Below are positions 13,864 to 33,673 of a stretch of DNA of 45,985 nt, in pieces. Source of the stretch: Crocinitomicaceae bacterium (GTDB taxonomy: Bacteria; Bacteroidota; Bacteroidia; Flavobacteriales_D; Crocinitomicaceae); assembly GCA_014762645.1 (NCBI GenBank), contig JABURP010000106.1, forward strand, positions 1-45,985. The letters run 5' to 3'. Made by a program: the position numbers and the translations under genes. A model generated the notes under the pieces. That model searched no databases and was not told the DNA's origin. It saw only the letters and a list, made by a program, of their open reading frames with translations. How positions within the stretch are numbered: the stretch's first letter is position 1; each line of letters opens with the position of its first letter.

Positions 13864-16800
13864 TTATTTTCCTCTAATAAGGTGGATATTACCTTGTCCT
13901 TTTAATTCTGTTCCATCCGTCGATACTCCTTCATATACGTAGAAATATACTCCATCCGGGCAAGGAGACCCATTCATATCTGTACCGTTCCATCCTTGTG
14001 AGATATCGTTGATTTCTCCAACAGTTGTTCCCCATCTGTTCACAATTGTACAGCTAAATGTCTCCACCGCTTGTGAAACGAATACAAAGGTGAATTCATC
14101 ATTGTCTCCGTCATTATTAGGTGTAAATACATTAATAGGTGTAAACTGAAGCGGGTCGTAAACAATCATTTTCTTACATACTGTATCAGCACAACCGTTC
14201 TTGTTTATAGCCACTAAACAAACATCATATTCTCCGGCAGAGGTGTAACAGGTATCAAATGTTTCATCCACATCATGCGATATCTGCCAGCCATAAGCTG
14301 GGTAATCTAATGACCAGAAGAAGGTCGTATCAGCATTAGGGTTATTAGGGTTTGCAAAGTACATGGATTGGTTTGTGTACGTGGCGCAAACAACAGCTGT
14401 GCCTTCATAAGTTAACGGGTCAATCATAGTTAATTCGTTAGAGGTCACATCAAAATCTGCAACAGGATTCAATGAATCCAATCGAATGGTATCCGTTAAA
14501 GAACAATTATTAGCATCTACTACAGATATTAAGTAATACCCTGGATTCCGTCCACCCCACGTCGTGTTATTCGTATTCTGTCCGGTTTGTAAGTTTGTCC
14601 ATGTATAGGAATAGCCTGGTGTTCCACCACCTGCGGCTGCATAAACCACCCCGTTACCGGATTGATAACCAAATTGTCTGCAATATGCCTCCTCAGTACC
14701 TAATTCCGTGAAGTACATTGAATCAGGGTAAACAATATTGAAGTTAAAAGAATTATCACAACCATTTTCATCATTAATTGTGAGCGTATATGAACCTTCA
14801 CCTACATGGTTAATTACATTTGAACCTATTCCATTTGGAATTCCAGGAATTTCTGGATTCCAGAAATAAGCAATTTGGTTATAATTACCGGTCGCATTAT
14901 ATACTGTGTCAACAGATACATATCCTGTTGGATCACCATAACATGCCGGCTGAATAATAGTCATATCAACATCTAACTCGCCTGGATCATCAAGGAAAAT
15001 TGAATCTTCTACAAAACAGCCTAATGAATCTACAATAGATGCATAATACCATCCTTCAGGCAGTGTATTAGCCGTAGTAGTATTACCCGAGTTTAATGTG
15101 TTGGAATTAGCATCCCAGATTGTAAAAGTGTTCCCTCCATTACCACCGGTTGTATTTACGGTTACTGAGCCGTCAGAGAACTGATAACAAGTCGGGTCAT
15201 TTGAAATCCAATCAAGTGTTAATTGAGGTGGTTCGTTAATTGTGAATAGCTGTGACCAGGCACATCCGTCCTGATCAGTTACGGTTACTACCCAGTCGCC
15301 TCCAAATAGGTCGTTGTGATCTGAGTCTCCTCCAGCAGCTACAACTTCTGAAGCAAATAATCCGGTAGTATGGGTCCAGGTGACATCAAAAGGAGGCGTA
15401 ATTCCTCCATTGATATTATTCACATAGGCACCTCCGTTATTGTCTCCATAACATGTAATATCTGTAAGGGAATCAAGTACAAAATCTGCCGTCACCGCAT
15501 TTTGACCTAATGAAACCGTTACTGCGGTGTCAACCGAGCAGCCATCATCACTAACTACATTTAAGAAGTAAGTAATCCCTCCATCAAGTCCTGGAAATAA
15601 ACCACTGTTTTGCGGGCCAAAAGTATTGCCACCACCAATGAGTGTATAGGTCCATGTAGGGTCATCTGGTTGTACAAGTATTGATCCAGGCACACCTGAT
15701 TGACCCGGGCAGTCAGTTGCATTTGTTACTGTAATATTAGTAAGGGTCACTGATCCCATGTCTACTTTTACTGAATCTGTCACCTGATAACATCCATCAT
15801 CAATTGTCAGATAATACCATGTCAATGAAGTTGGGGCAACAGCAATATCCTCTGTTGTTGCACCGTTTGGTTGCCAGCTGTATGTTAGCAAATTCGGATC
15901 GTATGGATTGTTGATTGTAGCATCAATATAAGCTGTATCACCAGGACATATCAGGAATGTATTCTGATTAAAGTTGATAGTTGGTTGCGGAGCGGCATTT
16001 AAGGTGACGTTCACTGTTGTATCCTGGACCATACCACATTCATCTGTTACCGTAACGGTGTATGTTTGTGTTCCCGGAACATCTCCTGGCAACGACGCAG
16101 TCGCTCCGGTACCATAAGCCCCCCAGTCAAAAGTTAGATTTGGTATACCTCCGTCTGTCCATGCTGTAACATCTATAAATGGTTGAGGACAATCTATTGT
16201 AGTATCATTGGCAAATACATTATATGCCGGTGGGTTGTCAACAATGTTGATGTTTGCACTAACGGAGACAGTGTCACCGCATGGAGATATGTAATAGGTT
16301 TCAATAGTTAAAGTTTCCGTTGGTTCGGAAATTGCATCAGCAAGGGCGTCGATAGATACGGTGAGCGTATCCTGACCTGAAGGAATAGTGTAACTAGGGT
16401 TAATCTGAGTGTAATCTGTACCATTAGTTGCAGAACCTGAAACAATAACTGGTACGGTAACGGTTGAGTCTGTATATCCGTTAGGTTTAATAAAGTTTAT
16501 GGCAGCGGATGTACAACCTTCTATCAATTCGTTTCCAATAAGTGGATCACCGTTTACATCAACCAACTCTATGTTAATATCCGGAGCGTTTGAGCTAAAT
16601 GAACTTGCCTCAAGAAATACGGCGGAGTCATAAATGTGGTCGGGAGAGGTGGGCCCACCACTAGCATCACCAATAGCTAATTTGATATGGTAAGTTTGTC
16701 CGCACTGCACTTGTGCAGCAGCTTGAAGAACCGTGGTGTAAGCGTCATATTGTATCTCTGTTCCACCTGTATTATCAATTAAATATTGGCAATTGATACA

Positions 16801-25487: not shown

Positions 25488-27539
25488 ATGACCACATATC
25501 AGAATTATGCCAAAGGAGAATGGGTTAGCGGGCAAGGTGTAGAAACAGAATTATTCAACGCAATTACAGGAGAGAAGATTGGAGAATGTTCATCTGTTGG
25601 GCTTGATTATGCCGGAATGATGGACTACGCAAAAGATAAAGGAGGAAAAGCCCTCCGAAAAATGACTTTTACGCAGCGAGGATTAATGCTGAAGGAACTG
25701 GCTCTGTTCTTACTCAAAAACAAAAAAAAGTACTACGAGGTTTCGGCATGGACGGGAGCAACACGAATAGACTCCTGGATTGATATTGAAGGAGGTATTG
25801 GAAACCTTTTTGCCAATGCATCATTGAGAAGGCAATTCCCTGACCTTCCTTATCATGTAGATGGATCTGCGGTCCCTCTGTCAAAAGGCGGTTCGTTTAT
25901 CGGGCACCATATTATGGTGCCAAAACATGGTGTTGCCATACACATAAATGCATTTAACTTTCCAATTTGGGGAATGCTGGAAAAGATAGCTGTGAATCTA
26001 CTGGCAGGTGTTCCTGCAATCGTCAAACCCTCTGAATTTACTTGTTATCTAACAGAAGTAATGGTCAGGGATATTATCGATTCAAAAATTCTTCCAGAAG
26101 GAGCTTTACAACTGGTAGTAGGATTAGGACGAGGAGTGATTGACCATGTTGGGTCTACGGATACGGTAACCTTTACAGGATCGGCCGCTACCGGAAAGAA
26201 ATTAAAAGCCCTGCCGCATATCGTAGAAAATTCTGTAAGCTTTAACCTGGAAGCTGATTCACTTAACGCAGCAATCCTTGGAAAAGACGCAGTGCCCGGA
26301 ACGCAAGATTTTGACATCTTCATCAAAGAAATTCAAAGAGAAATCACGGTAAAAGCAGGTCAGAAATGTACTGCGGTAAGAAGAATTGTGGTACCAGATA
26401 ATCTTGTTGAAGATGTACAGAAAGCACTGTCATCCCGACTGGATAAAAACACGATTGGTGACCCATCTGACCCTTCTGTTAGAATGGGCTCATTGGCTAC
26501 TAAATTGCAGGTAGAACGGGTAAAAGAGAATATTGAACTACTTAAAAAAGAGCAGAGCATTGTTTACGGAGATCTTGACAATTTTGAGGTAATTGGTGCC
26601 GATAAAGACAAAGGAGCTTTTATGTCTCCAATTGTCTTTTTAAATGATGATCCGCACAAGAAAACTGCAGTACATGATGTAGAATGCTTTGGCCCTGTTT
26701 CTACAATAATGCCGTACAAAGATTTGGAGGATGCTGTGAAAATTGCCAATATGGGTAAAGGATCACTGGTTTCGACAATCGTAACTTCAGATGATGAAAT
26801 TGCTACAGAGTTTGTAGTAGAAGCGGCAACAATGCATGGAAGAATTCACGTATTGAATGAAAGGTGCGCCAAAGAGTCTACCGGACATGGATCCCCTATG
26901 CCGTTACTTACTCACGGTGGTCCAGGAAGAGCTGGAGGTGGTGAAGAAATGGGTGGCGTTAGAGGTGTAAAACACTATTTACAAAGAACAGCCATTCAAG
27001 GACACCCGCAAACAATTACACAGATTACACAACAATTCCAGTACGGAGCAGATCAGCCGGAGGCAAACCCTCATGTTTTCAGACAACATTTTGAAGAGTT
27101 AAATGTGGGAGATACAGTCTTCACGCACAAACACACCGTGACCGAGGCAGATATTGTCAATTTTGCAAATGTATCAGGTGATAATTTCTATGCACACGTA
27201 GACGATACATCACTGGAAGGAACTATGTTTGAACAAAGAGTAGCTCATGGTTACTTTGTGCTCTCAAAAGCTGCCGGATTATTTGTTGATCCTAAAAAAG
27301 GACCGGTATTATTGAACTATGGAATTGATGAATGTAGATTTACAAAACCAGTTTATGTTGGAACTACCCTGGGGGTAAGATTTACAGTTAAAGAGAAAAT
27401 CGATCAGGAAAAAAAGAATGACGCAGATGTAGCAAAAGGGATCGTCAAGTTTCTGGTAGACATGTATGACGAAACCGGAGAAACTGTGGGAATTGCGACT
27501 ATTCTTACCATGGTAAAAAAATTAGATCAAAGTTCATAA
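25488..27539 (+). CDS. paaZ: PaaZ-type bifunctional oxepin-CoA hydrolase / semialdehyde dehydrogenase
   Basis: 683 residues from the ATG at 25488, almost the length of E. coli PaaZ (681). Residues about 1-510 are an aldehyde dehydrogenase with VTFTGSAATGKKL, Glu255 in FNLEADS and the nucleophile Cys294 in AGQKCTAVRR, matching the E. coli positions. Residues about 535-680 are a MaoC-like hydratase with VSGDNFYAHVDD and QRVAHGYFVLS. PaaZ opens the oxepin ring of the phenylacetate pathway and oxidises the semialdehyde. A longer frame begins at TTG 25434, but its extra 18 residues are not family-like. No other paa gene except perhaps the next crotonase is in the window. Confidence 0.93.
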   Translation: MTTYQNYAKGEWVSGQGVETELFNAITGEKIGECSSVGLDYAGMMDYAKDKGGKALRKMTFTQRGLMLKELALFLLKNKKKYYEVSAWTGATRIDSWIDIEGGIGNLFANASLRRQFPDLPYHVDGSAVPLSKGGSFIGHHIMVPKHGVAIHINAFNFPIWGMLEKIAVNLLAGVPAIVKPSEFTCYLTEVMVRDIIDSKILPEGALQLVVGLGRGVIDHVGSTDTVTFTGSAATGKKLKALPHIVENSVSFNLEADSLNAAILGKDAVPGTQDFDIFIKEIQREITVKAGQKCTAVRRIVVPDNLVEDVQKALSSRLDKNTIGDPSDPSVRMGSLATKLQVERVKENIELLKKEQSIVYGDLDNFEVIGADKDKGAFMSPIVFLNDDPHKKTAVHDVECFGPVSTIMPYKDLEDAVKIANMGKGSLVSTIVTSDDEIATEFVVEAATMHGRIHVLNERCAKESTGHGSPMPLLTHGGPGRAGGGEEMGGVRGVKHYLQRTAIQGHPQTITQITQQFQYGADQPEANPHVFRQHFEELNVGDTVFTHKHTVTEADIVNFANVSGDNFYAHVDDTSLEGTMFEQRVAHGYFVLSKAAGLFVDPKKGPVLLNYGIDECRFTKPVYVGTTLGVRFTVKEKIDQEKKNDADVAKGIVKFLVDMYDETGETVGIATILTMVKKLDQSS

Positions 27540-27561
27540 GGAAAATATTAATTGAATTGTA

Positions 27562-28323
27562 ATGAAAAACGGACACGTAACACACGAGATATCAGAGAAG
27601 GGGATTGCAACGATTGAGTTTGGGCATCCGCAGAGTAACTCATTACCGGGAAAAATCCTGGAGAAACTGAGAAAGACGATAACAGATGTTGGGGCGCAGG
27701 ACGACGTAAAAGTGATTGTACTTAAATCTGCCGGTGATAGAGCTTTCTGTGGAGGAGCCTCTTTTGACGAACTCGTTGCCATCAACGACGAAAAAACAGG
27801 TTTACAGTTCTTTTCGGGGTTTGCAAACGTAATTAACGCCATTAGAAAATGCCCGAAATTAGTAATTGGCAGGGTCCAGGGAAAAGCTGTTGGCGGTGGA
27901 GTCGGAATTGCTTCAGCGGTTGATTATTGTTTTGCCACCAAACATTCCGCGGTTAAGTTATCTGAACTGGCCGTCGGAATAGGTCCGTTTGTTGTTGGGC
28001 CTGCAGTTCAAAGAAAAGTGGGCTTGTCTGCATTTTCTCAAATGACCATTAACGCGACAGAATTTTGGCCAGCGGAATGGGCTAGAGAGAAAGGTTTGTA
28101 TATGGAAGTTTACGAAAGCGCTGAAGAGATGGATGCAGCCATTCAAATACTCGCAGAAAAATTAGCTGCATCAAATCCTGAAGCAGTTACCAAATTGAAA
28201 CGTGTTTTCTGGGAAGGTACAGAGAAGTGGGATAACCTGTTAAAAGTAAGAGCCGCCATCTCCGGCGAGTTGGTTTTATCCGACTTTACAAAAAACGCGA
28301 TTAACGCATTTAAAAAGAAATAA
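27562..28323 (+). CDS. Crotonase-fold enoyl-CoA hydratase/isomerase
   Basis: 253 residues with a full crotonase core. The oxyanion hole is formed by AFCGGASFDEL (about 61-71) and VQGKAVGGGVGIAS (105-118). Of the two catalytic glutamates of classical hydratase, the one equivalent to rat Glu164 is present (Glu135 in LSELAVGIGP), but the position of Glu144 is Gly115. Family members with one glutamate are often isomerases, so isomerisation is a reasonable guess. Its position 22 bases after paaZ suggests a role in aromatic-CoA or fatty-acid degradation, such as a PaaG-like step; it is not diagnostic. The next gene, mrp, starts 2 bases after its stop. Confidence 0.88.
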   Translation: MKNGHVTHEISEKGIATIEFGHPQSNSLPGKILEKLRKTITDVGAQDDVKVIVLKSAGDRAFCGGASFDELVAINDEKTGLQFFSGFANVINAIRKCPKLVIGRVQGKAVGGGVGIASAVDYCFATKHSAVKLSELAVGIGPFVVGPAVQRKVGLSAFSQMTINATEFWPAEWAREKGLYMEVYESAEEMDAAIQILAEKLAASNPEAVTKLKRVFWEGTEKWDNLLKVRAAISGELVLSDFTKNAINAFKKK

Positions 28324-28325
28324 GA

Positions 28326-29387
28326 TTGGAAATCACAGAAGATAAAGTAATAGAAGCATTAAAGCGGGTAATAGAACCTGACTTGAAGAAGGATATTATT
28401 ACACTTGATCTGGTAGATAATATTAAGATTGAGGGAAATAAAATATCCTTTAATGTCAAAGTATATAACCCGGCCATGCACGCTAAAAAGCGAATGACGG
28501 AAGCGCTTGAGTTTCAGTTGGAACGTGCATTTGGAAAGGATGTCGAAGCGGAAATTTCTTTGCAACCACTACCGAAGGATAAAGAGCCTGAAGTGCGCTC
28601 AGTTCTTTCTAATATTGATAAAATAATAGCTGTGGCTTCTGGTAAAGGAGGTGTCGGTAAGTCTACAATCACAGCTAATTTGGCTGCAGGTTTGGCTAAA
28701 ATGGGTTATAAAGTGGGGCTGGTGGATGCTGATATTTATGGACCATCCATGCCTACTATGTTTGACGTGGTAGGGCAGAGACCGCAAGGGATTGAAAAGG
28801 ATGGAAAAACCATGATCAAACCAATTGAAGCCTATGGTGTGAAGATGCTTTCCATTGGCTTTTTTGCAGATCCCGAACAAGCTGTTGTATGGAGAGGTCC
28901 CATGGCAACTAAAGCATTAAATCAAATGTTCAAAGATGCGGATTGGGGAGAGCTGGATTTTATGATTGTTGATCTTCCGCCCGGAACAGGAGATGTGCAT
29001 TTAACGCTGGTTCAGAACGTTCCGCTTTCAGGAGCAATTATTGTAAGTACCCCACAAGAAGTTGCATTGGCTGATGCACGAAAGGGAATCAATATGTTTA
29101 GAATGGATTCGCTTAAAGTTCCTGTTTTAGGTATTGTAGAAAATATGGCCTGGTTCACACCGGAAGAATTACCAGATAACAAGTACTATATTTTTGGACA
29201 GGATGGAGCGAAAATGCTTTCTGAAACCATGAATGTCCCGCTTTTGGCTCAAATTCCGCTAATTCAATCCGTGCGAGAGTCCGGAGATGTAGGAAGGCCG
29301 GCTGTTTTACAGGATAATACCTTGTCTTCTAAGGTATTTGATGAATTTGTTCGTAAATTTGTCACATCACTTAAGGTGACAATATGA
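28326..29387 (+). CDS. mrp: Mrp/ApbC-type iron-sulfur cluster carrier ATPase
   Basis: 353 residues starting at a TTG two bases after the crotonase stop. This start is needed because a MIP18/DUF59 domain fills residues about 3-80 and the next ATG (residue 51) would cut it. The P-loop NTPase domain carries the deviant Walker A GKGGVGKS (106-113), DADIYGPSMPTMF and IVDLPPGTGDVHL. ApbC proteins carry and transfer [4Fe-4S] clusters in the cytoplasm. The usual CxxC pair near the C-terminus is absent: the aligned stretch reads ENMAWFTPEELPDNKYYIFG, a form common in Bacteroidota. Its stop overlaps the nfu start by four bases. Confidence 0.92.
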   Translation: MEITEDKVIEALKRVIEPDLKKDIITLDLVDNIKIEGNKISFNVKVYNPAMHAKKRMTEALEFQLERAFGKDVEAEISLQPLPKDKEPEVRSVLSNIDKIIAVASGKGGVGKSTITANLAAGLAKMGYKVGLVDADIYGPSMPTMFDVVGQRPQGIEKDGKTMIKPIEAYGVKMLSIGFFADPEQAVVWRGPMATKALNQMFKDADWGELDFMIVDLPPGTGDVHLTLVQNVPLSGAIIVSTPQEVALADARKGINMFRMDSLKVPVLGIVENMAWFTPEELPDNKYYIFGQDGAKMLSETMNVPLLAQIPLIQSVRESGDVGRPAVLQDNTLSSKVFDEFVRKFVTSLKVTI

Positions 29388-29767: not shown

Positions 29768-30082
29768 ATGACATCACAAGATCAAGAAATTCAAATGACT
29801 CACAACAAAGAGAAGAATAGGTTTGAGTTTGATCTGGAGGACCACAAAAAAGGAGTTGTTAAATATGAACGATCCGGTCACAAGATGAGACTCACCCACA
29901 CCCAAATTCCCAAAGAAATTAGAGGGAAGGGATATGGAAAAACAATGGCAGAAATGACCCTGGAGGAAATAGAACGTATGCGAATGAAAGTGATTCCACA
30001 ATGCCCTTTCATAGATTATTATATTGAAAATAATCCGAAATGGGAAAGTCTGGTATATCACACCAGTAGCGAAATGAACTAG
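29768..30082 (+). CDS. Small GNAT-like acetyltransferase (NATD1/YjdJ type)
   Basis: 104 residues. It shows the short GNAT form: HNKEKNRFEFDLEDHKKGVV, the strand MRLTHTQIP, the acetyl-CoA loop EIRGKGYGKTMAEMTLE and then VIPQCPFIDYYIENNPKW with the Cys-x-Phe-Ile/Tyr-Ile pattern that marks the NATD1/YidJ-like group. These single-domain proteins are roughly 90-110 residues, so it is full length. The substrate is unknown; small-molecule or protein acetylation is possible. It has a gap of about 160 bases in front and is convergent with the TfoX-N gene, with 11 bases between stops. Confidence 0.85.
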   Translation: MTSQDQEIQMTHNKEKNRFEFDLEDHKKGVVKYERSGHKMRLTHTQIPKEIRGKGYGKTMAEMTLEEIERMRMKVIPQCPFIDYYIENNPKWESLVYHTSSEMN

Positions 30083-30093
30083 GCAGGTGATGT

Positions 30094-30444
30094 TTAACTG
30101 CTTTTCTTCTTTTTCTTTGGTTTCTTAGTGCGTTTAGCCACTAAATAGGCATCCTGTACCCATTTTTTCAACTCTGACCGGTCTTCTAATATGGTTTGTG
30201 GAACTTCGTAATAAGGCATTTTTATGGGTTTTCCCGGGATCTGCCAGGGGCTGCAATCATACTTCTCAAAATTGGGAATGGTTTCCGAATCCGCTTTTAA
30301 CCTGAACACACCCTCCATTATCCCTCCGAACATTAAATCGTCCTTAAAATAACCCACACCTCCAAACATCTTTTTAGAGTAAATCCCCTCTATTCCATCC
30401 AACTGGTCATTAATGAATGCATAGTAATCTTCAGATACAGGCAT
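30094..30444 (-). CDS. TfoX N-terminal-domain protein
   Basis: 116 residues. The block YSKKMFGGVGYFKDDLMFGG near 22-41 and FRLKADSE near 47-54, followed by PYYEVP, match the TfoX_N domain, which in Sxy/TfoX of Gammaproteobacteria controls competence. Here the C-terminal TfoX half is absent and replaced by a short Lys-rich tail (KKPKKKKKSS). Stand-alone TfoX_N proteins are common in Bacteroidota and their function is unknown; a competence role should not be assumed. No com genes are nearby. Confidence 0.85.
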   Translation of the reverse strand: MPVSEDYYAFINDQLDGIEGIYSKKMFGGVGYFKDDLMFGGIMEGVFRLKADSETIPNFEKYDCSPWQIPGKPIKMPYYEVPQTILEDRSELKKWVQDAYLVAKRTKKPKKKKKSS

Positions 30445-30522
30445 ATTTTTATGGAGGAAGATAATAATTTTTTCCTTTCGGTAACTCCCTTCGAAACTGC
30501 AGGAATGGGAATCAATAATTGC

Positions 30523-30553
30523 TTGAAAATTTATACAACAAAAAATAGAATTG
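30523..30553 (+). promoter_or_regulatory. Possible promoter for the CysO/MoaD-like gene
   Basis: TTG at 30523-30525 and TAGAATTG at 30546-30553, 20 bases apart; one mismatch to TAnnTTTG. It lies in the otherwise gene-free stretch 30445-30613, and would start transcription near 30560, ahead of the disputed start region. Confidence 0.35.
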
Positions 30554-30650
30554 ATCTAAAGTAAGTCATGGAATGGAGACAAAAACGTCTAAATTACATG
30601 CTTGCTTGTAGTGATGAAAAATTACCGCAACTATTATTAATCCAACACCT

Positions 30651-30902
30651 TTGCGTAAATTTACAGACAATAAGGAAAAAATCGTCACATCAGTGGAGTC
30701 TGTGGGCGATTCAATTCTACAACTGGGAACTTTGCACCCTGATCTCAATAAACACTTATTTAAAGATGACGGGGCATTGCAAACCTTTCTAAAAATTTAT
30801 CTGGGTGATACAGATATAAAAGTGTTGCAGAACGAAGATACACCAGTAAAAGATGGAGATGTAATTAGTATTATTCCGGCTATTGCTGGTGGAAAACAGT
30901 AG
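30651..30902 (+). CDS. CysO/MoaD-like ubiquitin-fold sulfur carrier, start unclear, GG-Lys-Gln tail
   Basis: The frame given starts at TTG 30651 (83 residues). The product fits the ThiS/MoaD/CysO beta-grasp family: PLRKFTDN, a helix with ESVGDSIL, then LKIYLGDTDIKVL and DGDVISIIPAIAGGKQ. Upstream in the same frame, codons from 30618 read KITATIINPTP, exactly the first beta strand that CysO-type proteins need, but this stretch has no in-frame ATG, GTG or TTG after the TGA at 30615. An ATG at 30614 is joined in frame only if one A of the A5 run is lost. Sulfur carriers normally end at Gly-Gly; this one has two more residues. The next gene, its likely activating enzyme, starts 3 bases later. Confidence 0.75.
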   Translation: MRKFTDNKEKIVTSVESVGDSILQLGTLHPDLNKHLFKDDGALQTFLKIYLGDTDIKVLQNEDTPVKDGDVISIIPAIAGGKQ

Positions 30903-30905
30903 GAG

Positions 30906-32075
30906 ATGAGTGATATAAAATTTAGTAAAGAAGAGCTTGAGAGGTATAGCCGTCATCTGATCATTCCTGAGTTCAATATTGAAGGTCAACGGAAATTAAA
31001 AGCAGCTCGGGTGCTTGTTGTTGGGTCCGGTGGACTTGGTGCACCTTTATTGCAATACTTAGCTGCTGCAGGTGTTGGAACTATCGGCATTGTAGATTTT
31101 GATGTTGTTGAAGATTCAAACCTTCAACGGCAGGTTCTGTTTACACAAAAAGACATTGGTCGTGCAAAGGTAGATGCGGCCAAACAACGTATTCTTGAAC
31201 AGAATCCGCATATTAAAGTGATTACATACAATACCACATTTACATCAGAAAATGCATTGGAAATTGCTGCAGACTATGACCTTATTGCAGATGGTACAGA
31301 TAATTTTCCAACGCGATATTTGGTGAATGATGTGTCTGTCCTCTTAAAAATACCCAACGTTTATGCATCCATCTTTAGATTTGAAGGACAAGTAACTGTT
31401 TTTAACCATGTTGATGCACATGGAAATACAGGTCCAAATTATCGGGATTTGTTTCCTACACCACCACCTCCGGGCCTTGTTCCTTCTTGTGCTGAAGGAG
31501 GAGTGATAGGAGTTTTACCTGGTATTCTGGGGAGCTTACAGGCTAATGAAGTGATAAAGGTGATTACCGGTGTAGGTGAAGTCCTCTCCGGCCGACTTTT
31601 TCTTTTTGATGCACTCAATTTTGAAACGCGTACCCTGAAAATTGCAAAAGATTTGGATAATCCTTTAACTGGAAAGAATCCAAGTCTTACCAAACTAATT
31701 GACTACGAGCAATTTTGTGGTCTCGGGATTGACAAGAAAGAAAAGAAACGGGAAAACGTCAAAGGTATCGACGTGGAAACCTTGAAAAAGTGGTTGGATG
31801 GTGATGAAGATATTCAACTCATTGATGTGCGAGAACCCTTTGAGTACGAGATTGTTAATATCAATGGCAAACTCATACCGCAGAGTGAAGTTTTAGAACA
31901 CGTGGATGAGATTTCGTCCAAAAATAAAGTAGTGATCCACTGTAGGTCTGGAAAAAGAAGCGCGGATGTAATTGAAATACTTCAGGACAAATATGGGTTC
32001 AATAATCTGTACAATTTGGAAGGCGGAATACTTGATTGGGTAGATAAAATTGACAGAAGTCTTCCGAAGTACTGA
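30906..32075 (+). CDS. MoeZ/MOCS3-like E1 enzyme with C-terminal rhodanese domain
   Basis: 389 residues. Residues 1-275 form a ThiF/MoeB adenylyltransferase with SRHLIIPEFNIEGQ, the nucleotide loop GSGGLG (40-45), DFDVVEDSNLQRQ and VPSCAEGGVIGVLPG with Cys195. Residues about 285-389 form a rhodanese domain with the active Cys346 in IHCRSGKRS. Such fusions adenylate the Gly-Gly end of a MoaD or CysO protein and load sulfur. The four zinc cysteines of classical MoeB are replaced (Asn178, Asp181, Asn252, Thr255), as in mycobacterial MoeZ, which serves CysO-dependent cysteine synthesis. The gene sits 3 bases after its likely carrier, so the pair probably acts together. Confidence 0.92.
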   Translation: MSDIKFSKEELERYSRHLIIPEFNIEGQRKLKAARVLVVGSGGLGAPLLQYLAAAGVGTIGIVDFDVVEDSNLQRQVLFTQKDIGRAKVDAAKQRILEQNPHIKVITYNTTFTSENALEIAADYDLIADGTDNFPTRYLVNDVSVLLKIPNVYASIFRFEGQVTVFNHVDAHGNTGPNYRDLFPTPPPPGLVPSCAEGGVIGVLPGILGSLQANEVIKVITGVGEVLSGRLFLFDALNFETRTLKIAKDLDNPLTGKNPSLTKLIDYEQFCGLGIDKKEKKRENVKGIDVETLKKWLDGDEDIQLIDVREPFEYEIVNINGKLIPQSEVLEHVDEISSKNKVVIHCRSGKRSADVIEILQDKYGFNNLYNLEGGILDWVDKIDRSLPKY

Positions 32076-32197: not shown

Positions 32198-33211
32198 ATG
32201 ATCGAAACAGATATTATCATCATAGGAGCAGGACCGGTAGGGTTGTTTACCGTATTTGAAGCGGGATTAGTGAAGTTGAAGTGTCATTTGATAGATTCTT
32301 TACCACAGCCAGGTGGGCAATTGACCGAAATCTATCCAAAAAAACCTATTTATGATATTCCAGGTTACCCTGAAGTAATGGCAGGAGAACTGGTTGATAA
32401 ATTATTGGAGCAGGCTTCTCCATTTAAACCTGGATTTACACTGGGTGAATCAGCCGTTACCATTGAAGAAACAGATGACGATCAGTTTATTGTGACCACC
32501 AATAAAGGAACGGAACATAAAGCTCCGGTTATTATGATAGCTGGAGGATTGGGTGTATTTGAACCAAGAAAACCACCGGTTGAGAAATTGGCCGATTATG
32601 AAGAAAATGGCGTTGAGTACATCATCCGCGATCCTAATATTTATCAGGGAAAACGCGTGGTAGTAGCAGGTGGAGGAGATTCAGCTTTGGATTGGTCCAT
32701 TTATCTGGTTGAAAACAATATCGCCAAAGAGCTTTCTCTGGTACACAGAAGATCTTCTTTTAGAGGTCATCTGGATTCTGTTCAAAAAGTAATGGATCTG
32801 GCAGATAAAGGGGATATTCAATTAATCACAGAAGCTGAAGTGGTTGGATTGAACGGAAATGGAGTCCTAAACTCTGTGGAGATTAAGCATAAAGATGGAT
32901 CCCAGATTACAAAGGAAACGGATCATTTCATACCCTTATTCGGACTAAAACCAACTTTAGGTCCTATAGCCACCTGGGGACTGGAAATTGAAAAAAATGC
33001 CATAAAAGTAGATACACGGGATTATTCTACAAATCGTCCGGGAATCTATGCCATTGGAGATGTCAATACCTACGAGGGAAAACTAAAATTAATTCTTTGT
33101 GGTTTTCATGAAGGAACAATTGCAGTACAGTCAGCCTTTGCAAGAATTCATCCGGACAAAAAGAATGTGTTAAAATACACCACGGTAAATGGTGTAAATG
33201 GATTTGAGTAG
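32198..33211 (+). CDS. Ferredoxin--NADP+ reductase, thioredoxin-reductase type
   Basis: 337 residues, the length of the YumC-like group of ferredoxin-NADP reductases. An FAD dinucleotide loop IIIGAGPVGLF opens the protein, with PQPGGQLTEIYPKKPIYD next, a block typical of this group. The second Rossmann loop VVVAGGGDSALDW (about 155-167) binds NADP. The thioredoxin-reductase CxxC redox pair is absent, as expected for an FNR rather than TrxR. The C-terminal GIYAIGDVNTYEGKLKLILCG is the flavin-contacting motif. It would pass electrons between NADPH and a ferredoxin; a [2Fe-2S] ferredoxin follows after about 130 bases with its own promoter. Confidence 0.92.
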   Translation: MIETDIIIIGAGPVGLFTVFEAGLVKLKCHLIDSLPQPGGQLTEIYPKKPIYDIPGYPEVMAGELVDKLLEQASPFKPGFTLGESAVTIEETDDDQFIVTTNKGTEHKAPVIMIAGGLGVFEPRKPPVEKLADYEENGVEYIIRDPNIYQGKRVVVAGGGDSALDWSIYLVENNIAKELSLVHRRSSFRGHLDSVQKVMDLADKGDIQLITEAEVVGLNGNGVLNSVEIKHKDGSQITKETDHFIPLFGLKPTLGPIATWGLEIEKNAIKVDTRDYSTNRPGIYAIGDVNTYEGKLKLILCGFHEGTIAVQSAFARIHPDKKNVLKYTTVNGVNGFE

Positions 33212-33343: not shown

Positions 33344-33673
33344 ATGTCAGATAACACGGTAATCATTCATATAATAGACAGAGAGGGAGTTCAACACGAT
33401 TTGGAGGCGCCAACAGATATGAATATGAACGTCATGGAAGTCTGCCGGTCGTATGAACTACCGGTAGAAGGAAGATGTGGCGGAATGGCCATGTGTGCTA
33501 CTTGTATGTGTTATTTGGAATCTGACCACGAACTTCCTGAACAATCTGATTCGGAACTGGATATGCTGGATGAGGCATTCTTTGTGGAAGATAACTCAAG
33601 ATTGGGTTGTCAGATCCATATCAATGATGATATTGATGGTATTGTGTTGAGGTTAGCTCCTGAAGGGAATTAA
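33344..33673 (+). CDS. Adrenodoxin-type [2Fe-2S] ferredoxin
   Basis: 109 residues, normal for this ferredoxin type. Cluster ligands Cys45, Cys51 and Cys54 lie in GRCGGMAMCATCMCYL with the Cys-x5-Cys-x2-Cys spacing of adrenodoxin-like proteins, and Cys89 in RLGCQI is the fourth ligand. Extra cysteines at 34 and 56 are not expected ligands. The protein is acidic, as usual for electron carriers. The upstream reductase is its probable partner, giving an NADPH-linked electron supply. The cytoplasmic acceptor cannot be told from the sequence. Confidence 0.93.
   Translation: MSDNTVIIHIIDREGVQHDLEAPTDMNMNVMEVCRSYELPVEGRCGGMAMCATCMCYLESDHELPEQSDSELDMLDEAFFVEDNSRLGCQIHINDDIDGIVLRLAPEGN

Follow-up and report, generated by a model that had tools for sequence, protein, structure and literature searches.

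Start region and identity of the carrier frame

The window, i.e. the whole stretch of 45,985 nucleotides that we analysed, carries a gene for a small CysO-like sulfur carrier directly ahead of a moeZ-type gene. In the order in which they lie, the features relevant here are:

29768-30082, plus strand: GNAT-type gene (PF14542) after nifU; a similar gene of the same-genus genome G001 (41% identity) adjoins moeZ
30094-30444, minus strand: gene with a TfoX N-terminal domain (Pfam), the next one upstream of the putative scar
30525-30559, plus strand: probable scar of the mec 3' end (last ten codons and stop), KFIQQKIELI-stop
30614-30640, plus strand: off-frame ORF MKNYRNYY, with its ATG at 30614-30616 and containing the A5 run
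30618-30902, plus strand: cysO-like sulfur carrier frame, with no conventional start ahead of its first strand, ending GGKQ-stop
30621-30623, plus strand: ATT, a candidate weak non-canonical start, which a 3-base insertion would make the old start position
30624-30626, plus strand: ACC at the position of the relatives' ATG start in an ungapped alignment
30639-30641, plus strand: AAT (Asn), where the other homologues examined have an Ile before the conserved Pro
30651-30653, plus strand: TTG, the earliest conventional in-frame start, the use of which would delete the first strand
30888-30902, plus strand: GG, then Lys-Gln and stop, the C-terminus of the cysO-like frame
30906-32075, plus strand: intact moeZ-type E1 and rhodanese gene with an NYRD motif (ThiF 262.8 bits, rhodanese 51.5 bits)

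The KITATIINPTPLRKFT-coding frame opens after a TGA (30615-30617), immediately upstream of which lie two further in-frame stops (TAG, TGA), and it ends at a TAG (30900-30902). From the opening, its codons are AAA (30618), ATT (30621), ACC (30624), GCA (30627), ACT, ATT, ATT, AAT (30639), CCA, ACA, CCT and TTG (30651), the latter being the earliest ATG, GTG or TTG in this frame. These coordinates agree with the original prediction, which had also described an ATG at 30614, out of frame with the carrier and followed by five A, just as we find it: the A5 run spans 30617-30621, and the MKNYRNYY ORF terminates at a TAA (30638-30640). This TAA is completed by the same AAT codon that stands in place of the conserved Ile (30638-30641). 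Candidate N-terminal peptides of the carrier are TATIINPTPLRK and MKITATIINPTPLRK.

The ThiS family (PF02597) matched the frame with 39.1 bits (cut-off 22.5), while no NCBIfam model scored above its own cut-off, the best being SAMP1 (46.1 of 60). A profile of relatives matched the CysO chains 4n6e (E 2.1e-17) and 3dwg (E 8.3e-16). The predicted structure (mean pLDDT 89.8) returned 4n6e (E 1.3e-8), 3dwg (E 1.2e-7), 3po0 (E 4.6e-7) and also 3dwm in Foldseek, so that SAMP1 of Haloferax (3po0) is nearly as near in fold as the CysO structures. In this model, strand 1 comprises residues 3-6 and a short helix residues 9-12 (numbered from ATT 30621), whereas TTG 30651 is residue 11. The predicted first strand therefore lies upstream of the sole conventional start, as had been proposed, and gene callers limited to ATG, GTG and TTG would begin the gene at TTG 30651 and lose this strand.

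As in CysO of Mycobacterium tuberculosis (3dwg, 3dwm) and Amycolatopsis (4n6e), there is a ubiquitin-like fold, a near-terminal GG and an adjoining MoeZ-type E1, and an IPT-LR motif is visible in the alignment with 4n6e. Unlike these proteins, the window carrier has no start codon and two residues past the GG, and its genome has neither cysM nor mec. Specifically, searches of the own genome yielded no close cysM (the best cysM-like matches were 34% and 30% identical, versus 61% in the same-genus genome G002) and no stand-alone Prok-JAB, the sole Prok-JAB match being a 460-aa JAB-E1 fusion on another contig. For this reason, we call the gene a CysO homologue by descent and not a working CysO; the CysO/MoaD-like assignment of the original prediction is thus specified as CysO type by descent. 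The fusion belongs to a four-gene ubiquitin-like cluster of the polyUbl/E2/E1-JAB kind on contig C121 of the window genome G000 (L081:5848-8392, minus strand), the other members of which are Multi_ubiq (106 aa), Prok-E2_E (131 aa) and DUF6527 (141 aa) genes.

The C-terminal Gly-Gly, whose role in sulfur carriers is treated in passages of PMC3227635, is not exposed in the window carrier but followed by Lys-Gln. Most unfused relatives likewise have at least one residue after the GG, while two (L114 and L129) end at it. Before the last Gly could be thiocarboxylated, Lys-Gln would have to be trimmed off; in the relatives, mec presumably does such trimming, and no dedicated JAMM protease for trimming was identified in the window genome. 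Among others, L084, L086, L088, L090, L094 and L112 have cysO and moeZ fused into a single open frame, so that freeing the carrier there would take a cut after the GG.

The start codon in homologous loci

We read 58 homologous loci, the window among them, out of 96 distinct match places: 30 came from a search of the order, which matched 41 of 399 genomes, and 28 more from one of the phylum, which matched 51 of 395. In the family, 8 of 240 genomes match, and a scan of genome contigs gave five distant relatives. An in-frame ATG lies 6-13 codons ahead of the conserved Pro in every locus read (57/57) except the window. Its distance to the conserved PTPLRKF motif is exactly six codons throughout the 29 other order-level loci; at that position, the window has ACC. 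The N-terminus reads MAxxIIPTPLRKF in G002 and G003 (same genus), G025, G010, G021 and G034 (same family) and G043 and G053 (same order), and MSYINIPTPLRKF in G058 (same order). The Ile before the conserved Pro is equally invariant in the 57 other loci and is replaced by Asn in the window. Private changes of the window at near-invariant columns number two in the 30-row set (as in L102) and one in the 58-row set (as in three others), which, as aligned, is not unusual.

Where the lost start lay depends on the alignment. Without gaps, it would be about three codons downstream of ATG 30614, i.e. at the ACC (30624-30626). Since the GAAAAAT string of the window matches GAAAAATG of G025, an alternative alignment with a 3-base insertion (G025 GAAAAATG-GCAACT versus window GAAAAATTACCGCAACT) would put the old start at ATT 30621. 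Under either alignment, ATG 30614 is not the ancestral start, contrary to the expectation that it sits exactly where the start should be. Likewise, a version with four A, which according to the original prediction would join this ATG to the carrier frame, would by this comparison create a new start three codons upstream rather than restore the old one, because the ancestral ATG itself is altered. The original prediction had further held that an in-frame ATG further upstream in relatives would rule out a programmed event; the in-frame ATG of the relatives lies downstream of the position of ATG 30614. The A5/ATG arrangement is not common to the relatives.

We also scored start contexts with a model built from 53 gene starts of the own genome, a small set and not cross-validated. 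ATT 30621 (-1.89) and ATG 30614 (-1.67) both fell into the 4th percentile of these starts and are no better than an average ATG (median of all window ATGs, -1.54). TTG 30651 reached -0.72 (15th percentile) and ACC 30624 reached 0.3. The cysO ATGs of relatives scored 4.1 (G002), 4.3 (G025) and 2.4 (G003), with G010 at only 0.05. Besides, no Bacteroidota-type -7 promoter pattern was found on the plus strand of 30381-30640. Among the matches listed, literature searches returned no paper that treats a cysO without a start, which is not proof of absence.

Partner genes, a probable mec scar and moeZ

In relatives, the carrier gene is part of a cysM-mec(JAMM)-cysO-moeZ operon. This gene set is a known one, operon type 4c of Iyer et al. 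2006 (PMC1779556), for which ThiS/MoaD, E1-rhodanese, JAB and cysteine synthase genes are listed, with one Bacteroidetes/Chlorobi entry. Relatives from the same genus, family and order carry the set. The window departs from it, retaining just the carrier, the E1-rhodanese gene and the probable mec scar; several relatives differ in having carrier and E1 fused. Within the stretches fetched (up to 1.5 kb on each side), mec and cysM were both present in 28 of the 30 order-level loci; the exceptions were the window (neither) and the same-genus G003 (a cysM remnant, no mec). Genome searches found both genes in G002, G025 and G010. Of the 28 loci from the phylum search, three yielded no mec and seven no cysM.

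The top mec match beside the window gene (E 0.012) was rejected as a remnant, as it is part of the TfoX protein. The second, KFIQQKI (E 0.30), emerged from a closer test as the probable 3' end of mec (KFIQQKIELI-stop, compared with KFINQKIKIS-stop in G010 and KFIQQSILIRS-stop in G002). Five relatives were tried, of which the same-genus G002 and the same-family G010 were the two best. With the G002 mec end, this site alone among 1066 tiles (window, both strands) reached the score, which 4 of 2000 shuffles attained as well. The score of the G010 end was reached by 3 of 1066 tiles, being exceeded in two minus-strand tiles, and by 10 of 2000 shuffles. The mec-end scores were not reached in eight control comparisons in four other stretches. 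G025 (same family) matched more weakly (42 of 500 shuffles), and G021 and G034 did not match (286 and 304 of 500). Together, these sequence comparisons strongly suggest a mec scar at 30525-30559, and because of this scar we infer a probable in-place deletion that took cysM and almost the whole of mec. No remnant of cysM was found in the window, the scar test was negative in G001 and G003, and no cysO remnant was seen upstream of moeZ in G001.

The four genomes of the genus that we compared form a graded series. G002 has cysM, mec and cysO, with moeZ cut by the contig end (this genome is fragmented, 93% complete and 4% contaminated, and the contig with the operon measures 5.4 kb). G003 has lost cysM and mec save for the cysM remnant, while its cysO is intact and differs from that of G002 in 2 of 89 residues. 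In the window, the cysO start is lost in addition to cysM and mec, and G001 has moeZ and no match to cysO. Within the genus, gyrB and mrp distances are smallest for the pair of the window genome and G001, with the fork unresolved; a single cysM-mec loss shared by these two is a possibility. That G003 cysO had been under selection long after the death of cysM was considered and rejected, as the cysM remnant (pN 0.088, pS 0.545 over 30 codons versus G002) is not clearly neutral.

The moeZ-type gene scored 475 bits with the NCBIfam MoeZ model, below its cut-off of 647. Passages of PMC3227635 address the meaning of the NYRD motif in MoeZ-type proteins and report that mycobacterial MoeZ sulfurates both CysO and MoaD. 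A MoeZ search of the own genome matched the E1 part in just one further protein, the JAB fusion. Among the MoeA, MoaE and MoaC genes of this genome lies a moaD-like one (63.5 bits, slightly below the cut-off of 66.15), and a thiS (61.8 bits, cut-off 37.45) adjoins thiC; MoeZ presumably serves MoaD and ThiS in this organism. The terminal moeZ branch measures 0.078 in the window and 0.78 in G001 (L077:7954-9090), which lacks cysO, versus 0.02-0.15 in near relatives; the long G001 branch falls inside the same clade, its exact place being unsure. This suggests that constraint on moeZ was altered in G001 after loss of the carrier.

Probable gene decay and its alternatives

Ordinary gene decay, and not a new frameshift switch, is the most likely account of this locus. 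More specifically, we see an even chance that cysO descends from a CysO carrier, had its ancestral ATG destroyed and is now an incipient pseudogene in a pathway dismantled after deletion of cysM and mec. Taking together the altered start, the absent partners and the conserved remainder of the frame, we infer the following order. Deletion of cysM (cysteine synthase) and mec (JAMM protease) in place, with just the mec tail left, would have left the carrier with neither its acceptor enzyme nor the protease by which its capped C-terminus is presumably trimmed. Loss of the start codon and of the conserved Ile may then have been tolerated, yielding a gene that is probably translated poorly or not at all, while MoeZ was kept, probably as an activator of MoaD and ThiS. 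Start-codon-loss pseudogenes have, by the general notion, an open frame and a missing start. The window gene is like them in both respects and in belonging to a pathway that is losing members; it differs in that its frame is otherwise conserved, and its decay thus reads as recent or incomplete. The lost start codon is the disabling change present. Because the rest of the frame has neither a stop nor an indel, the start would have been lost recently, or a weak AUU at 30621 still works. Further observations sit uneasily with decay: pN/pS against G003 is low, if rough, private changes are no more numerous than in some other rows, the slow moeZ branch of the window looks as if CysO were still a partner, and two base changes within one start codon, with little else relaxed, would be odd for a short time unless they arose in a single event. 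With G025 as outgroup, the dN branches of cysO are 0.071 in the window and 0.059 in G003, those of moeZ 0.045 and 0.054.

The main rival, an ATT start being also among the options of the original prediction, is a living gene that initiates at AUU 30621, at or next to the ancestral start, and makes low levels of fMet-TATIINPTPLRKFT; we regard this as unlikely, albeit well worth considering. The gene body is conserved, with a pN/pS of 0.16 against G003 and 0.20 against G002, ratios that are rough given near-saturated pS (0.73 against G003). An ATT precedes the ATG in G003, and the GAAAAAT string common to the window and G025 would let the ATT equal the old ATG given the 3-base insertion. E. coli infC starts at AUU, yet AUU is a weak start codon. 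ATT 30621 has an A at -3, which according to passages of PMC6847099 aids initiation in Flavobacterium johnsoniae. Its overall context is nonetheless among the poorest of the own-genome starts, and the Asn in place of the otherwise invariant Ile likewise speaks against a working product. As a variant, CysO could still be made from the AUU and have outlived cysteine synthase and protease through another MoeZ job (for example tagging of proteins, or sulfur transfer to a different acceptor), with the weak start limiting how much is made. We consider this variant improbable; if it held, G003, with its partners absent and cysO intact, would be a second case.

Initiation at TTG 30651, perhaps by re-initiation past the MKNYRNYY stop at 30638, would produce a shortened protein without the first strand. 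The TTG is the earliest conventional start in frame, the odd changes lie upstream of it, and its context beats those of ATG 30614 and ATT 30621. However, it falls inside the predicted conserved structure, in the short helix behind strand 1, and the PTP before it is unaltered in the window, which makes such a start very doubtful. An error in sequence or assembly at or near 30614-30641 is a somewhat less remote, though still rather unlikely, explanation, the genome being a draft in 128 contigs. Against it, a homopolymer error alone explains neither the ACC at the ancestral ATG nor the Asn codon. In addition, seven neighbouring genes at 25.4-33.7 kb showed no frame break when ORFs of at least 90 aa from G001, G003 and G025 were compared with the window genes (nifU, 74 aa, and TfoX left out): single unbroken matches cover 25488-27533, 27559-28320, 28476-29384, 29768-30058, 30906-32072, 32198-33208 and 33344-33670. 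Finally, slippage of the polymerase on the A5 run, or a +1 ribosomal shift there, could join the off-frame ATG 30614 to the carrier, an event that the original prediction had put forward. AAA can indeed re-pair after a one-base slip on AAAAA, giving exactly the N-terminus M-K-I-T-A-T. Yet A5 is a short run for slippage, the context of ATG 30614 is poor, the ancestral start lies elsewhere, and none of the 57 other loci, all with a plain in-frame ATG, needs a shift. We consequently rejected programmed slippage for lack of conservation and hold any use of this ATG to be most improbable. As judged from the loci compared, slippage, a +1 shift and an assembly error have no comparative support.

Provided that the decay reading holds, the loss of this alternative cysteine pathway can be followed through its stages within a single genus, from the operon through loss of the partners and then of the start to loss of the carrier, and MoeZ may change pace after carrier loss. 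Should the gene still be translated, nature would offer here an instance of AUU initiation in a probable Bacteroidota lineage with little Shine-Dalgarno use, and the question would arise of what CysO does without CysM and Mec. The lineage is suggested by two proteins of the own genome with a Por secretion tail, just above its cut-off.

Further observations concern sequence near the cysO operon of G025. The window gene at 13912-15063 (minus strand) matches just residues 723-1105 of a 1105-residue G025 protein encoded there (45%). Besides, two G025 stretches (L078:3811-4821 and L078:11444-12449) match the ferredoxin-NADP-reductase-like gene of the window (70% and 75% DNA identity), which suggests that this gene has been duplicated in G025.
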